Origin: Soonwooa buanensis
Lineage (GTDB): Bacteria; Bacteroidota; Bacteroidia; Flavobacteriales; Weeksellaceae
NCBI RefSeq assembly: GCF_900167905.1
Contig: NZ_FUYZ01000010.1
Span: 1-64,000 of the forward strand
DNA length: 64,000 nucleotides
Direction of reading: 5' to 3'
Numbering within the stretch: the first letter of the stretch is position 1; each line of letters opens with the position of its first letter. Under the pieces are notes generated by a model, which had not been told where the DNA came from, ran no database searches, and saw nothing but the letters and a program-made list of their open reading frames with translations. The translations under genes and the position numbers were made by a program. Below are positions 1,478-46,217 of this stretch, in pieces.

Positions 1478-3857
<2,380 letters not shown>

Positions 3858-39957: not shown

Positions 39958-41967
39958 CTATGCTTCAACAAAATACATTTCCATTTCGCCTTTTCCTTTC
40001 ACAGAAATCTTGCCACGATAAGTTGTGCCGAAATCGTCTTTTACTAATTCGTAAGTATTTTTAGAAATATTGATTTTTCCTTTTTCGCCCGCTTGTTCCA
40101 TTCTGGCAGCTGTATTTACGGTGTCGCCCCAAATATCGTACGCAAATTTCTTCACACCAACAATTCCCGCAATCACTTGTCCAGAATGGATCCCAATGCG
40201 CAAATCCAAAGCGTTTGGACTTACTTTTTTACGTTCTTCGATAAATTTCAGAATATCTTGACTCGCTGCGATGGCATTTTTAGCGTGATCTTTATTAACT
40301 GTTGGAAGTCCGCTCACTGCAAGATACGCGTCACCGATGGTTTTTATTTTTTCTAAACCATGTTTGCCCATAATATTGTCAAATTCGGTAAAGCAAACGT
40401 TGAGTTCTTCTAATAATTCTTGAACACCAATCTTTTCCGAAGTCGCTGTAAAATTCACAAAATCAGTAAACAAAACCGAAACTTCATCGTAATATTTTGC
40501 TTTGGATTTTCCTTTATCTTTTAATTCTTGCGCCACTTCTTGCGGAAGAATATTTAGTAATAAATCTTCGGATTTTTGCTTTTCCACTTGCAGTTCTGAA
40601 GTTCTTTTTTCAACTTGTTCTTCAAGAATTTCGTTTTGATTTTGAAGAATATTTTGCTTTTCTTGCTCCTGTTGTATCGTTAAATCTGACAGTCGATTAA
40701 CCTCTACCAATTGTTTTGTTAATCCAATATTGGTTGCTGCAAATTGCCAAGCTAAATACGCTGAAATAGAAACAGGAAAGCTAAATAAAATAAAAAATGC
40801 TATGGGCGGAAAATACTTTGATAAAAAATCACTATCTGGATCAATAGAACCTCCATTTAAGATTAAAGTTATTATCAAAGCAACAATTGCCACAAAGAAA
40901 ACCAATATTCCACCACCGACAATAAATGCCGATTTTTCTCTTCGCCACATTGCTCTTATTATCAGGAAAAATGATTCGAATGTGACAGAAATCAAATATA
41001 GTAGTAAAATAAGAGAAGCCCACTCGTTACTGAAATAGAATATGCAAATTCCTAACACTGGAAAAATTGAAAGTATATAAAATCTCAATTTTCTTTTTCC
41101 GAAAAGTGTATTCACAAATCCTGATAACGAAAAACAAAATGCTGCAAAACTGATATAAAACCAAAATGTTGTTGAGATAAGAGTTGTTGGATCTTCCATC
41201 TGATAGAACTTAACCAACAGAAAACTCATCAACGCAATTGATAAATTATAAATTCCAAAAAACAGGTTGTAAACGGCATTTCTATAAAAAAGAAAAAGCA
41301 ATAAATGAATAAATCCTAATGCCATAAATATCCCTGTTATCAACATAACAATAGAATAAAATGACTTGTCTTCATCTAATGTTTCAGGAAAATAATCACT
41401 CGCTAATGTAAAATACATGTAGAAATTACTACCACTAAAAGAAACAATTGAACTAAGTTCATTCCGAGGCACAGGCTGAATTCTTACCGAAAGAACATGC
41501 GTTAAAGTATCTGAAATTGTTATAATCTTAGGATTATTATTTTTTATTTTATATTTCGGATCTTTAACATCAATTTTTCCTAATACGTCTAATCTTTTTC
41601 CATCCAGAAATATTTCAGAAGCTCCATTTTGCATAACTCTCACCATCAAAGGCTTTCCTACTAATGAAGAATCTATTTTGAAATAATTACGTTGCCAATA
41701 GATTTTCGAATAATTCTTAATATCTACTTTAGAAATTTCTTTCCAAGAACGATCATCAAAATTAGTTTGTGCATATTCTGGACGATCGTCTGGACTTACC
41801 ATCCATTTTTTATCAAGAACAAGTTCTAAAGAATCATTTTTGCTTGTTTTTAATAAAGCTGGATTTTCCTTACTTGTTTGAGCCAACAAAAAGCAATGCG
41901 CTAAAAAGACGATTAAAACTAAAAACCGCTCTCTAAAGATTGTATAAACTATTGATTTTTTTTTCAC
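39958..41967 (-). CDS. Membrane class III adenylate cyclase with 7TM-DISM sensor
   Basis: The 669-residue product has a signal-like N-terminus, a beta-rich extracytoplasmic sensor (about 40-180, resembling 7TMR-DISMED2) and a seven-helix 7TM-DISM region (about 195-400). A coiled coil (LTIQQEQEKQNILQNQNEIL) then precedes a class III cyclase domain (about 480-669). Catalytic residues are visible: metal aspartates in FTDFVNFT and IGDAYLA, adenine-specifying Lys and Asp in EKIKTIGD and YDIWGDTVN, and NTAARM. It should make cAMP in response to an outside signal. The cyclase domain is nearly identical to that of the next gene (608-bp direct repeat). Confidence 0.9.
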   Translation of the reverse strand: MKKKSIVYTIFRERFLVLIVFLAHCFLLAQTSKENPALLKTSKNDSLELVLDKKWMVSPDDRPEYAQTNFDDRSWKEISKVDIKNYSKIYWQRNYFKIDSSLVGKPLMVRVMQNGASEIFLDGKRLDVLGKIDVKDPKYKIKNNNPKIITISDTLTHVLSVRIQPVPRNELSSIVSFSGSNFYMYFTLASDYFPETLDEDKSFYSIVMLITGIFMALGFIHLLLFLFYRNAVYNLFFGIYNLSIALMSFLLVKFYQMEDPTTLISTTFWFYISFAAFCFSLSGFVNTLFGKRKLRFYILSIFPVLGICIFYFSNEWASLILLLYLISVTFESFFLIIRAMWRREKSAFIVGGGILVFFVAIVALIITLILNGGSIDPDSDFLSKYFPPIAFFILFSFPVSISAYLAWQFAATNIGLTKQLVEVNRLSDLTIQQEQEKQNILQNQNEILEEQVEKRTSELQVEKQKSEDLLLNILPQEVAQELKDKGKSKAKYYDEVSVLFTDFVNFTATSEKIGVQELLEELNVCFTEFDNIMGKHGLEKIKTIGDAYLAVSGLPTVNKDHAKNAIAASQDILKFIEERKKVSPNALDLRIGIHSGQVIAGIVGVKKFAYDIWGDTVNTAARMEQAGEKGKINISKNTYELVKDDFGTTYRGKISVKGKGEMEMYFVEA
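39968..40575. repeat. Direct repeat copy 1: cyclase-domain segment
   Basis: This segment is nearly identical to 42003-42610 (offset 2035 bases) and covers the whole cyclase domain of the 7TM cyclase gene. The encoded domains differ at only about seven of 205 residues by eye, while the rest of the two genes is unrelated. Confidence 0.85.
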
Positions 41968-41989
41968 TTATTATTAGTTCAATGTATAA

Positions 41990-44335
41990 TTAAGCTTTTC
42001 CCACAAAATACATTTCCATTTCGCCTTTTCCTTTCACAGAAATCTTGCCACGATAAGTGGTTTCGAAATCGTCTTTTACTAATTCGTATGTATTTTTAGA
42101 AATATTGATTTTTCCTTTTTCTCCCGCTTGTTCCATTCTCGCTGCAGTGTTCACCGTATCGCCCCAAATGTCGTAAGCAAATTTCTTCACCCCAACAATT
42201 CCTGCAATCACTTGCCCAGAGTGAATCCCAATGCGCAAATCCAAAGCGTTTGGACTTACTTTTTTACGTTCTTCGATAAATCTTAGAATATCTTGACTCG
42301 CCGCAATAGCATTTTTCGCGTGATCTTTATTAACTGTTGGAAGTCCGCTCACTGCAAGATAAGCATCGCCAATGGTTTTAATTTTTTCTAAACCATGTCT
42401 GCCCATAATATTGTCAAATTCTGTAAAGCAAACGTTAAGTTCTTCTAATAATTCTTGAACACCAATCTTTTCCGAAGTCGCTGTAAAATTCACAAAATCT
42501 GTGAATAAGACTGAAACTTCGTCGTAGTATTTCGCATCAGATTTTCCTTTTTCCTTAAGCTCTTGCGCCACTTCTTGCGGAAGAATATTTAGTAATAAAT
42601 CTTCGGATTTCTTTTTCTCCGCAGCGATTTTAATACCGTCTTTTCTTTTTTGATTGTATGACCAACCTGCAAAACCTAAAAGTAACAATGCCGCTAAAGC
42701 ACCACCAATAGACATATTTCGGATGTTCTTAGATTTAGAAAGTTCTGCTTTAGCTTCGGCATCTTTTTTAGCTTGTTCGGCTTTTGCAACTTTCTTTTCT
42801 TGAGCATATTTTATTGCAATTGCTTTTTGCTCTTCATCGTATTTAATACTAATTTCACGACGTTTATGTTCTTCTTCTAACAACAATCTTTGGCGCTCAA
42901 CTTCAGTTTTGGCAGCCGCTTGTTTTTTGTCAAATTCGTAACGAAGTGCTTTTAACTCCAATTCTTTTTGAAGCTGAATACGTTTGGTTTCTTCCTCTAA
43001 TTTGATTTTTAATTTCTGTTCAGATAAAGTTCGTTCAGATTGAGTTTCTTCGATACCCCGAATATTCTCAGCACTTGTCTTTTGGTTTTCAAGATCTTTG
43101 TATTTTTTGTAGTACGAAAAAGCCGACTCATAATCTCCTAACATTTCATCAACTTTAGAATAATATTCCCACATTTGACCATCCATTTCCTTATTATGAT
43201 AAAGTTCTTGCGCTAAATAATTATCATAGGTTTTTGTTAGATCAGTACGTAAATTTTGCAGTGTAGTTTTTCTTTCCGAATCTGTTGCAAAACTTATCTT
43301 TTTATCTTGTATTTGATCAATTTTGATGTTTAACAAAAGTAATTTTGCAGAGGATTTTGTTATTGACAATCCCTTTTCTGGAGCTGAATCATATGATTTT
43401 TGCGCAAATTGAATTGCTTTATCATAGTCTTTTTCTTTTTGATTAATCTGAGCAGTTAAATAATATAATCTTGGTAAGTTTTGAATTTGATTTTGCGCCT
43501 CCATAAACTTTAATGAACTTGTAGCATATAACTTTGCCTTTTCATAATCCTTTAATTCCATAAAACAAAACGAACGCAAAATATTAATTTCAGCTAAAAA
43601 AGCTTCACTTTTGTTAGGCAATAACTCCGCACTTTTATCAAGAGCACTCAAAGATTTTTGATAATTTTTCATTTGATATTGCAACAAACCTATAAAGTAC
43701 ATTGGAATATAAGATTCTGCTTTGCTATATTTATTTGTATAATCGGAAAATTCTAAAGCCTTTGTATAGGCATCCGAAATTTTATTTTGCTGATTAAGGT
43801 TGCTAATGCTCATTGCATAAACATTTCTCATAATGCTAGGAACAATCTTATTTTCATTCTGCTGATTTAATGCAATTGCTTTATTTAACTCCGTACTAGC
43901 TTCTTCGAATTTATTTTGCGTAAAAAAGTTTTGAGCATCGGTAAGAATTAAAAGAGCTTTAGAATTATAATCATTTGACATCTGCAAATATCTTTGCGCT
44001 TCTTGTTTATAATATTCTCCTCCCGTAGTGTCTCCCTTTGTTAAATAGGCAGAATAGATAGTAATATAAATACTACCGATTGTCATACTATTTTTCGACT
44101 TTTTAAAATATTCAATAAGCTTTGGACCGTTGGCAATAACACTATCATTCTTTCCTTCTACACTAAATTGATTAATCATATCAATCTTAATACTAGTACG
44201 ACTTTTCTCGTCCTTCGCATCTTTCAGCTTTTGACGAAGTTCTTTAATAGAAACCGAATCCTGCGCTTTTAAAACACAAAAAGAACTCAGTGTTATACAT
44301 AGGAAAATATAGAAAGGGATGGAGATATTTTTCAA
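41990..44335 (-). CDS. TPR-containing class III adenylate cyclase
   Basis: The start chosen is a TTG at 44335, giving MKNISIPFYIFLCITL, a normal signal peptide cut after LKAQ. The ATG at 44377 lies upstream of a TATTTTTG promoter box (44363-44356) and is unlikely. About 10 TPR-like helix pairs (NSMTIGSIYITIYSAYLTKG, EEASTELNKAIALNQQNENK) form a periplasmic array. A long coiled coil, a single TM helix (about 545-565) and a class III cyclase domain follow, with the same adenylate-type residues as the gene downstream. It should sense an envelope or protein signal and make cAMP. It heads the cyclase cluster, 22 bases before the second cyclase. Confidence 0.9.
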   Translation of the reverse strand: MKNISIPFYIFLCITLSSFCVLKAQDSVSIKELRQKLKDAKDEKSRTSIKIDMINQFSVEGKNDSVIANGPKLIEYFKKSKNSMTIGSIYITIYSAYLTKGDTTGGEYYKQEAQRYLQMSNDYNSKALLILTDAQNFFTQNKFEEASTELNKAIALNQQNENKIVPSIMRNVYAMSISNLNQQNKISDAYTKALEFSDYTNKYSKAESYIPMYFIGLLQYQMKNYQKSLSALDKSAELLPNKSEAFLAEINILRSFCFMELKDYEKAKLYATSSLKFMEAQNQIQNLPRLYYLTAQINQKEKDYDKAIQFAQKSYDSAPEKGLSITKSSAKLLLLNIKIDQIQDKKISFATDSERKTTLQNLRTDLTKTYDNYLAQELYHNKEMDGQMWEYYSKVDEMLGDYESAFSYYKKYKDLENQKTSAENIRGIEETQSERTLSEQKLKIKLEEETKRIQLQKELELKALRYEFDKKQAAAKTEVERQRLLLEEEHKRREISIKYDEEQKAIAIKYAQEKKVAKAEQAKKDAEAKAELSKSKNIRNMSIGGALAALLLLGFAGWSYNQKRKDGIKIAAEKKKSEDLLLNILPQEVAQELKEKGKSDAKYYDEVSVLFTDFVNFTATSEKIGVQELLEELNVCFTEFDNIMGRHGLEKIKTIGDAYLAVSGLPTVNKDHAKNAIAASQDILRFIEERKKVSPNALDLRIGIHSGQVIAGIVGVKKFAYDIWGDTVNTAARMEQAGEKGKINISKNTYELVKDDFETTYRGKISVKGKGEMEMYFVGKA
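42003..42610. repeat. Direct repeat copy 2: cyclase-domain segment
   Basis: Partner of 39968-40575. Similarity stops abruptly at both ends, at the stop-codon side and just before the coiled coil, so the segment was copied or converted as a unit. Confidence 0.85.
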
Positions 44336-44355
44336 ATCATGCTTTTTATCGCAAG

Positions 44356-44363
44356 CAAAAATA
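44356..44363 (-). promoter_or_regulatory. -7 promoter box of the TPR-cyclase gene
   Basis: Reads TATTTTTG on the minus strand, a full TAnnTTTG match; the predicted transcript would start near 44350, downstream of the ATG at 44377 and upstream of the TTG at 44335. Confidence 0.5.
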
Positions 44364-44427
44364 AAAATTAATAGCAATTTTAAATCATCAAAAGCGCTAA
44401 AATTTTAAGAATTTATTAAGAAATCAA

Positions 44428-45633
44428 TTAAAACAATGACAATTGTATTCCGTCACTTGGTGGTTTAGCGTCGCCCATAACGGTCTTTCCACCAAATCGA
44501 AATGAATTTCGGCGCTCCTCCTCAACAACAGTATCAAAATCAAAATCGGGTGTAAAGTTTTTTTCGGTCTCAGCAACAATGCGGTGTAGTTTTTCGATTG
44601 ACTTTAATTTGTCCGAGTTTCCAAGTTTGGATTTTTCAACACCTTTTTGAAGAATCGAAATCGTCTCATCGAACGTATTAATTGGCACAGGAAAAGGATG
44701 ACCATCTTTCCCGCCATGCGCAAAAGAAAAGCGCGCTGGATCTTTGAAACGTGACGGCGCACCATGAATAACTTCACTAACCAAAGCCAAACTTTGCATC
44801 GTGCGAGGTCCAACACCTTTTAGCAATAATAAATCTTCGAAGTTTTGAGGTTGCAATTCGCGAGTGACATACAGCAAAGCGCCAAGTCTTTTCAGATCGA
44901 CATCTTTGGCGGTGACTTCATGATGTTGAGGCAGAATTAAATTCGCAAAATCCTGCATAATCTTCTCGGAGTTGGTATGCGAAATGTCTAAAATTCCGTT
45001 TCGATTATCTTTAGCATCGCTTGCTGTAAGGTTAAGAATCTCACCTCGATTAACACCTTGGATCGCGCTGTGAGGATCATCAACAAAGGATTTCAGATTT
45101 TCGGAATGCCAATGATAGCGGCGCGCCGTTCCATCGGCATCATTCAGACCTTGCTGAACAACCGCCCAACTGCCTTCATCGCTCAAAATAAAATTATGCA
45201 AGTACAATTGATAACCATCTTGGATCGCCGTGTTATCAACTTTAGCCGTCAATTTGCTCGCTCGGACAAGCCTGTCAGCATTTAATCCAGTTTTGTCGGC
45301 AATTAGTAGAAGTTCGGAGGGCGTTTCTTTAGAATATTTGCCTTTTCCACCACAAATATAAATTCCCAAATCTTTAGCGATAGGATTGATACTTCGTTTT
45401 AGAGCGCCCATCACGGAAGTGGTAATTCCCGACGAATGCCAATCCATGCCCATAACAGCACCAAAACTCTGAAACCAAAAAGGATCCGACAAACGTCGAA
45501 GCACTTCAGCCTTTCCGTAATCTGCCAAAATAACTTCGACAATAGAAAGTCCCAGGGCAGACATACGCTCGTACAACCATGGCGGAACTTTACCATAGTG
45601 AAGCGGAAGAGTTGCTGTACCTGATCGTTTCAT
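44428..45633 (-). CDS. DUF763 protein with HhH motif and C-terminal clamp-binding motif
   Basis: The 401-residue soluble protein belongs to the DUF763 family by its opening MKRSGTATLPLHYGKVPPWL, the conserved GGKGKYSKETP block, QGYQLYLHxFxxSDEGSWAVVQQGLND and SFAHGGKDGHPFPV. Its function is not established. Residues 266-290 (EDLLLLKGVGPRTMQSLALV) form a helix-hairpin-helix DNA-binding motif. The last five residues are QLSLF (397-401), an exact match to the bacterial sliding-clamp binding pentamer QL(S/D)LF. Together these suggest a DNA repair or replication-associated enzyme; that is inference. It follows a terminator of tpx and stands alone. Confidence 0.85.
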   Translation of the reverse strand: MKRSGTATLPLHYGKVPPWLYERMSALGLSIVEVILADYGKAEVLRRLSDPFWFQSFGAVMGMDWHSSGITTSVMGALKRSINPIAKDLGIYICGGKGKYSKETPSELLLIADKTGLNADRLVRASKLTAKVDNTAIQDGYQLYLHNFILSDEGSWAVVQQGLNDADGTARRYHWHSENLKSFVDDPHSAIQGVNRGEILNLTASDAKDNRNGILDISHTNSEKIMQDFANLILPQHHEVTAKDVDLKRLGALLYVTRELQPQNFEDLLLLKGVGPRTMQSLALVSEVIHGAPSRFKDPARFSFAHGGKDGHPFPVPINTFDETISILQKGVEKSKLGNSDKLKSIEKLHRIVAETEKNFTPDFDFDTVVEEERRNSFRFGGKTVMGDAKPPSDGIQLSLF

Positions 45634-45639
45634 AGGATT

Positions 45640-45668
45640 AAAAAACGGTCCACTCGAAGGCAGACCGT
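45640..45668 (-). terminator. Terminator of tpx
   Basis: ACGGTC (45645-45650) pairs with GACCGT (45663-45668). On the minus strand a T run follows, immediately ahead of the DUF763 start at 45633. Confidence 0.7.
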
Positions 45669-45693
45669 CTAGATTTTTATTTAAATATAAATA

Positions 45694-46191
45694 TTATTTA
45701 ACTGCTGCTAAAGCATTTTCGTAGTTTGGTTCTTGACCAATTTCTGGAACTTGCTCTGTGTATACCACTTTTCCATTTTCATCAACCACAACAACCGCAC
45801 GACTCAAAAGTCCATGAAGCGGAGAATCTTCTAAAGTTACACCATAATCTTCACCAAAACTTCCTCTAAAATCAGAAAGTACGTCAACATCATTTAGTCC
45901 TTCTGCAGCACAAAAACGACTCAACGCAAAAGGTAAATCGCGAGAAACATTAACCACAACTGTATTATCTAAAGAACTTGCATCTTGATTGAAATGTCTT
46001 GCAGAAGCCGCACAAACTCCAGTATCAATACTTGGAAAAATGTTAAGAACAACTTTCTTTCCTTTATAATCGGATAATTTTTTTTCGGATAAATCGGAAG
46101 CTACCAAAGTAAAATCTTTAGCTTGAGTTCCAACTTCTGGAAGATTCCCAACTGTGTGTATTGGATTTCCTTTAAATGTAATATTTGCCAT
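45694..46191 (-). CDS. tpx: Thiol peroxidase Tpx
   Basis: Tpx is a peroxiredoxin that reduces lipid and hydrogen peroxides with thioredoxin. From ATG 46191 the product is 165 residues (MANITFKGNPIHTVGNLPEV). Peroxidatic Cys60 lies in the TGVCAASARHF motif, and resolving Cys94 in SRFCAAEGL. An in-frame start at 46212 falls inside a TAAATTTG promoter box (46217-46210) and is unlikely. A terminator separates it from the DUF763 gene downstream. Confidence 0.95.
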   Translation of the reverse strand: MANITFKGNPIHTVGNLPEVGTQAKDFTLVASDLSEKKLSDYKGKKVVLNIFPSIDTGVCAASARHFNQDASSLDNTVVVNVSRDLPFALSRFCAAEGLNDVDVLSDFRGSFGEDYGVTLEDSPLHGLLSRAVVVVDENGKVVYTEQVPEIGQEPNYENALAAVK

Positions 46192-46209
46192 ACTTTTTTT
46201 TATTTGAAT

Positions 46210-46217
46210 CAAATTTA
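46210..46217 (-). promoter_or_regulatory. -7 promoter box of tpx
   Basis: Reads TAAATTTG on the minus strand, a full match, 18 bases ahead of the ATG at 46191. Confidence 0.5.

Follow-up and report, generated by a model that had tools for sequence, protein, structure and literature searches.

A predicted clamp-binding tail on the DUF763 proteins of Bacteroidota points to a probable role in DNA repair

Introduction

A tail that binds the sliding clamp is the mark of a protein working at the replication fork or on the DNA behind it. The available text of PMC12309361 gives the bacterial clamp-binding consensus as QL[S/D]LF, or more generally as QxxLF, and clamp clients are described there and in the available text of PMC13254535 by the consensus Q-phi-x-[LM]-[FL] / QL[S/D]LF. 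The same two sources report that the C-terminus of B. subtilis PolC is QLSLF and that its peptide binds the clamp with a KD of 3.8 micromolar. On the archaeal side, the PIP box of Haloferax volcanii has been written as QxxLxxFx in the part of PMC7776575 that was available, and the corresponding part of PMC4929162 defines the box more strictly, as QxxhxxAA including two aromatics.

DUF763 (PF05559) is a Pfam family that is present in both archaea and bacteria and has no assigned function. We take it to be the same family as COG1415, of which our literature search found no mention. The search on DUF763 and PF05559 returned no function either, and in the text available the family was named only in domain tables (PMC554113), which place it in Xanthomonas and in many archaea, thermophilic ones included. 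The literature and Pfam are thus in line with the first-pass annotation of the DNA studied here, which had described the family as one without assigned function. In the present study, we analysed a DUF763 gene in a window of 64,000 nucleotides of Soonwooa buanensis (assembly GCF_900167905.1, contig NZ_FUYZ01000010.1, positions 1 to 64,000), and compared its product with homologues from Bacteroidota, Alphaproteobacteria, and haloarchaea.

Results

The DUF763 gene and its surroundings in the window

The gene is located at 44428-45633 on the minus strand, starts with ATG, stops with TAA, and encodes a protein of 401 amino acids whose C-terminal residues are GIQLSLF. Residues 5-316 matched PF05559 with E 6e-136 and 453.3 bits against a curated cut-off of 35.5, which makes the protein a member of the family by profile. 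A single copy was found in the window's genome. Beyond DUF763 and a weak HHH match, Pfam detected nothing in the protein, and no known nuclease or glycosylase motifs were recognised in it. The PDB sequence search gave no significant relative, the search for phage or viral copies of DUF763 found none, PADLOC gave no match to the DUF763 members submitted, and PHROGs gave one weak match (E 0.056) to one of 11 members.

Between DUF763 and the thiol-peroxidase-like gene upstream of it (45694-46212) lies a hairpin with a six-U run at its 3' foot (45640-45670, minus strand), a possible intrinsic terminator. RNA folding of 45630-45700 indicated a strong hairpin (-15.7 kcal/mol, z -3.2), and the consensus terminator scan did not report it. 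Because six bases separate the end of the U run from the start codon, transcription of DUF763 may rely on its own promoter or on read-through. At 39958-44377 on the minus strand, two adjacent genes were seen to have almost the same C-terminal stretch, which is nucleotide-cyclase-like by eye and which stands, in the second gene, behind tetratricopeptide-like repeats; the shared stretch is probably a recent domain duplication.

A conserved C-terminal QLxLF tail in Bacteroidota

The pentapeptide QLSLF at residues 397-401 (44431-44445, minus strand) fits the consensus of beta-clamp clients and is a predicted beta-clamp-binding motif. It is preceded by a variable linker, residues 387-396 (44446-44475, minus strand), which connects a conserved GGKTV block to the pentapeptide; residues 395-401 have pLDDT below 50 in the model. 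The C-termini of 130 Bacteroidota homologues were read from DNA, a set that may contain the same species twice and that leans toward close relatives, since one homologue search contributed the best 80 of 577 relatives; within the family sample described below, the DNA of 36 of the 60 DUF763 genomes was read. The results showed that QLxLF stands within three residues of the C-terminus in 126 of the 130 homologues and exactly at the terminus in 119, while the remaining four carry the near-matches QLSFF, QLSMF, RLTLF, and QMRLF. Among representatives of less than 80 percent identity (n = 27), 23 kept the strict QLxLF and the others were the same four near-matches. Conservation to this extent excludes a chance match, and in 20,000 shuffles of the window protein QLxLF never came to lie three or fewer residues from the end.

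The 126 motifs are encoded by 75 different 15-base sequences, with all six leucine codons used at both leucines, which implies purifying selection on the peptide and not shared DNA. Q1, L2, L4, and F5 are constant, and position 3 is occupied by S (92), K (20), E (7), R (5), G (1), or A (1); judged from these sequences, freedom at position 3 with the other four residues kept resembles the general clamp rule. The linker from the GGKTV-type block to the motif, measurable in 122 of the 126 homologues, is 8-30 residues long with many K, P, and G, so that the Bacteroidota motif has the accessible, flexible setting and the conserved terminal position of a clamp client. The first-pass annotation had read QLSLF as an exact clamp consensus at the terminus, and both the sequence and its conservation bear this out. 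It is very likely, from sequence comparison, that the tail of Bacteroidota DUF763 would prove to bind the beta clamp.

Other proteins ending in QLxLF in the same genome

The DNA pattern for QLxLF followed by a stop codon occurs at 52 sites in the window's genome versus 47 for the reversed-pattern controls and is thus not enriched, so that the argument rests on conservation and not on the site count. Fifty of the 52 sites were checked for an ORF of at least 80 aa, the other two being the window's own site and one that ends in TGG, which is no stop. Besides DUF763, only two ORFs of at least 80 aa were found to end in QLxLF, and both encode radical-SAM proteins. One belongs to TIGR03916, a putative DNA modification/repair radical SAM family (654.6 bits); the other (L143, 478-1515) belongs to the PA0069 radical SAM family (482.9 bits) and ends in QLRLF. 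The literature search found the TIGR03916 model named nowhere. TIGR03916 carries a helix-hairpin-helix (HhH; Pfam HHH_3), and its full-length copies from the 61 Bacteroidota genomes followed (n = 15; L188, positions 1898-3151, and L198-L212) end in QLxLF in six cases and in QMVLF in one, the other C-termini being QLxLPG[ILM] (seven) and QLVIPGI (one). Seven of these 15 tails fit the QxxLF rule, and the eight QLx[LI]PG tails resemble the published clamp forms but miss them. Since one of the two additional ORFs falls into a putative DNA-repair family, a terminal QLxLF may flag repair factors, and it may offer a cheap route to undescribed ones in Bacteroidota.

A probable helix-hairpin-helix and a conserved N-terminal region

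Residues 265-290 of the window protein read FEDLLLLKGVGPRTMQSLALVSEVIH and contain a GxG hairpin signature; the HhH signature itself (residues 266-290, with KGVGPRT) maps to 44764-44838 on the minus strand. Pfam HHH matched residues 260-278 of this protein with E 0.14 and 12.5 bits, and it gave E of at most 1 in 7 of 11 diverse DUF763 members, the best reaching 0.01 and 16.1 bits; with the cut-off at 24, the Pfam score places neither the window protein nor the best member in HHH. G273 and G275 are conserved across the aligned Bacteroidota, Alphaproteobacteria, and haloarchaea and fit the hGhG hairpin; a low-confidence model places a helix on either side of them, at 265-269 and at 276-289. An hhalign comparison of DUF763 residues 235-320 with the HhH stretch of TIGR03916 gave a probability of 68 percent. 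With residues 1-345 the matching stretch aligned at 25 percent, and with residues 1-230 the value was 1.7 percent, so that by hhalign the TIGR03916 stretch shows no relation to the N-terminal part of DUF763. The HhH that had been proposed at 266-290 from KGVGPRT thus holds as a signature with a sub-threshold Pfam score, and we regard the 265-290 region as a probable HhH.

The N-terminal conserved region, about residues 13-177 (45103-45597, minus strand), was outlined from a comparison of the three groups and from invariant alignment columns and is a candidate active site. A position was counted as conserved when the same residue occurred in at least 95 percent of the 130 Bacteroidota, 7/7 alphaproteobacterial, and 4/4 haloarchaeal proteins. 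By this definition, 85 positions are conserved from haloarchaea to Bacteroidota, 63 of them within the first 191 residues. The motifs comprise D64 W65 H66 S67 S68, GG[KR]G at 95-98, E107, D133, Q138 D139, H146, QQG at 160-162, and ARRYHW at 170-175, and the conserved polar residues (D64, H66, S67, S68, K79, E107, D133, D139, H146, Q160, Q161, R171, R172, and H174) look like those of an enzyme in the alignment.

Two AlphaFold models, built from Bacteroidota-only alignments of 48 and 73 rows, were poor (pLDDT 62.7 and 63.5). With models of this quality, Foldseek gave no match under E 1e-3, either for the first model against PDB or for the second against viral structures. VIA-align of the second, low-confidence model gave a best Z of 4.8 (rmsd 3.6, 76 aligned), all rows being below Z 5; one of these, to Rad51, was weak (Z 2.7, rmsd 2.9, 55 aligned) and covers model residues 220-293. 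None of the fold comparisons was given weight. As the models are too poor for naming the fold, our best account of DUF763 is an architectural one.

DUF763 proteins of Alphaproteobacteria and haloarchaea

The plasmid collection contained 230 DUF763 records, mostly from Rhizobium and Sinorhizobium, and a Legionella plasmid copy is counted in this tally. QLxLF occurs in none of the 13 alphaproteobacterial proteins read, most of which keep a GGRSVFGWE-type block and then continue into unrelated C-terminal tails. The motif is therefore conserved in a clade and not across bacteria, and its conservation in all bacteria was rejected; the expectation of the first-pass annotation that bacterial members keep it held for Bacteroidota and failed for Alphaproteobacteria. 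As a separate observation, 12 of the 13 alphaproteobacterial proteins (L130-L133, L139-L141, and L193-L197) contain Q[LV][DE][LM]L at about residue 215, in the segment that separates the beta-rich part from the HhH and close to the site of the haloarchaeal PIP-like box described below. It was dropped as a clamp motif, the counterpart segment in Bacteroidota being modelled as a helix.

All four haloarchaeal DUF763 proteins found contain QRSLADFG or QRSLSDFG within an otherwise variable archaeal insert, which agrees with the QxxLxxFx form in 4/4 cases. The stricter QxxhxxAA form is absent from them, since position 8 is G in all four; our search pattern allowed G at this position, which was added after inspection of the sequences. 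The QxxLxxF pattern is loose: it arose in 1.6 percent of shuffles of one haloarchaeal protein, and it also occurs in 100 of the 130 Bacteroidota proteins, mostly in a core strand in the examples printed. Its weight in haloarchaea comes from its being kept within an insert that otherwise varies. The four haloarchaeal sequences are 74-84 percent identical to one another and so amount to nearly one observation. The PIP-like box is thus suggestive only. A PCNA motif had been anticipated in archaeal members, and what the haloarchaea contain is such a box in an internal insert and not at the terminus.

Gene neighbourhoods of DUF763

A repair gene was found near DUF763 at five of 11 annotated alphaproteobacterial loci, within flanks of 5-7 kb. 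AlkB overlaps DUF763 by one base in Rhodopseudomonas, UdgX is a neighbour in Sinorhizobium meliloti, a 3-methyladenine glycosylase in Ensifer canadensis, and LigD in Shinella, and in Bosea the order is DUF763 - glycosylase - Ku - Ku - LigD. Four Rhizobium loci outside these five have an endonuclease/exonuclease/phosphatase-family gene, and two of the 11 have neither kind of gene in their flanks; two further loci, without annotation, are not among the 11. No repair neighbours were found at three annotated haloarchaeal loci, and one haloarchaeal copy adjoins orc1/cdc6. At the Bacteroidota loci, inspection by eye of the 40 largest neighbour clusters recognised no repair gene. The genes seen most often beside DUF763 resemble a Crp/Fnr-type regulator, at 50 loci, and a thiol peroxidase, at 46, both assigned by eye and not by profile. 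Many of these loci reach only about 1.5 kb on each side, so the neighbour counts are lower bounds. In one Bacteroidota genome (L118), a thiol peroxidase (by eye) stands between DUF763 and a divergent Ku, and a Flavisolibacter locus (L084) has an Fpg/Nei glycosylase-like gene (by eye) about 1.5 kb from DUF763.

Co-occurrence of DUF763 with Ku

The distribution of DUF763 is patchy, with 19 of 296 genomes in a phylum sample and 60 of 148 in a family sample. Ku was found in 16/19 DUF763 genomes versus 23/277 others in the phylum sample (Fisher p 2.6e-13, relatedness ignored), and in 48/60 versus 16/88 in the family sample (Fisher p 4.1e-14, relatedness ignored). When Ku was shuffled within genera, the 48 co-occurrences observed compared with 45.8 expected, a weak excess (p 0.03), and at the genus level Ku was present in 7/9 DUF763 genera versus 3/24 others. 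The association thus lies mostly between genera and not within them; in one genus of the order (g4), Ku was present in 6/6 DUF763 genomes versus 1/10 without DUF763, among those listed. Catalase, which was meant as a control gene, proved nearly universal (131/148 genomes) and was used only for genus labels in the 148 genomes. On plasmids, as raw counts, Ku accompanied DUF763 in 6 of 8 alphaproteobacterial cases and in 0 of 4 haloarchaeal ones. A search of the window's genome found neither Ku nor LigD_N, and in the family sample Ku was missing from 12 of the 60 genomes that carry DUF763, so that the gene does not always travel with Ku or LigD.

Discussion

The genomic context supports a role of DUF763 in genome maintenance, and a role in DNA repair is probable. 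The first-pass annotation had already proposed repair, and this proposal gained indirect support from the HhH, from the alphaproteobacterial neighbours, from the co-occurrence with Ku, and from a layout like that of TIGR03916. With moderate confidence, we favour the reading that DUF763 is an accessory DNA-repair factor which is recruited to the clamp in Bacteroidota via its QLxLF tail, the clamp contact, the catalysis, and the type of lesion being putative parts of it. The flexible tail ending in QLxLF would dock on the beta sliding clamp, and the HhH module would grip the DNA backbone. The N-terminal alpha/beta region, with D64, H66, E107, D133, D139, H146, R171/R172, and H174 as the likely catalytic site, would process a damaged base or a broken end on the DNA that carries the clamp. 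The tail would in this way hand the protein to the clamp on recently replicated DNA, and in haloarchaea the internal PCNA box may give an equivalent recruitment. A broader proposal, which we put forward only tentatively, is that DUF763 is a lesion-processing enzyme of unsolved fold in bacteria and archaea to which the clamp became attached separately, through the tail in Bacteroidota and through the PCNA box in haloarchaea, the alphaproteobacterial members, which frequently lie close to Ku, LigD, or base-excision genes, having no recognisable strict clamp motif.

The Ku counts of both samples, the gene orders at L118 and in Bosea, and the alphaproteobacterial plasmids would also fit a protein that is mainly an accessory of NHEJ, for instance an enzyme that processes ends alongside Ku and LigD, in which the clamp tail serves as a secondary aid to localisation. 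Against this, both Ku and LigD_N are missing from the window's genome, which implies that DUF763 is not dependent on NHEJ and led us to reject a requirement for Ku; 12 of the 60 family-sample carriers do without Ku as well, and so do the four haloarchaeal plasmids. In addition, NHEJ follows genome size according to the available text of PMC7719229, and genome size is a confounder still contained in the counts. Given this confounding and the small excess within genera, an NHEJ accessory is kept as a rival only, and we judge it unlikely.

The same tail could belong to a replication-coupled regulator, for which the clamp is a signal of replication and which acts on another protein or on initiation. 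The fit of QLxLF to the clamp consensus, the lack of a recognised catalytic motif of known DNA enzymes, and the haloarchaeal copy beside orc1/cdc6 are compatible with such a regulator, whereas the patchy distribution is ill-suited to a core regulator, and the many enzyme-like polar residues and the repair-gene neighbours in Alphaproteobacteria speak for an enzyme of repair; a regulator therefore appears quite improbable. Short hydrophobic C-termini can also serve other roles, and the terminal QLxLF might bind some different partner, for example a protease adaptor, with a coincidental match to the clamp consensus. The absence of the motif from the 13 alphaproteobacterial members and the predicted nature of clamp binding leave some room for such a partner. 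Nevertheless, Q1, L2, L4, and F5 are kept with position 3 free, as in the general clamp rule, and the two further ORFs found to end in QLxLF in this genome encode radical-SAM proteins, one of which falls into a putative repair family, so that a non-clamp partner is the least plausible of these rivals and very improbable.

Recruitment to the clamp for DNA repair thus remains the reading that we prefer. If the tail binds DnaN, the DUF763 family would move from one without assigned function to one of clamp-recruited genome maintenance, and the conserved clamp-type tail makes DUF763 a strong and directly testable candidate for a DNA repair factor not yet described. Among known systems, the PolC-type clients of the beta clamp likewise have QLSLF at the extreme C-terminus (PMC12309361, in the text available), whereas DUF763 is no polymerase and its binding is predicted. 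NreA, as described in the available text of PMC4929162, is a PCNA-dependent repair factor of about 400 aa without an assigned activity, and in this it is like DUF763 as read here; unlike DUF763, it is specific to archaea and has a C-terminal PIP, and the likeness noted here is one of description. Closest in architecture is rSAM_link_UDG (TIGR03916), which also combines an HhH with a clamp-like C-terminus and whose copy in the window's genome ends in QLSLF, although its catalytic part is a radical SAM domain that is absent from DUF763. The two proteins of this genome share a common layout of a catalytic part, putative in DUF763, followed by an HhH and a clamp-type C-terminus.
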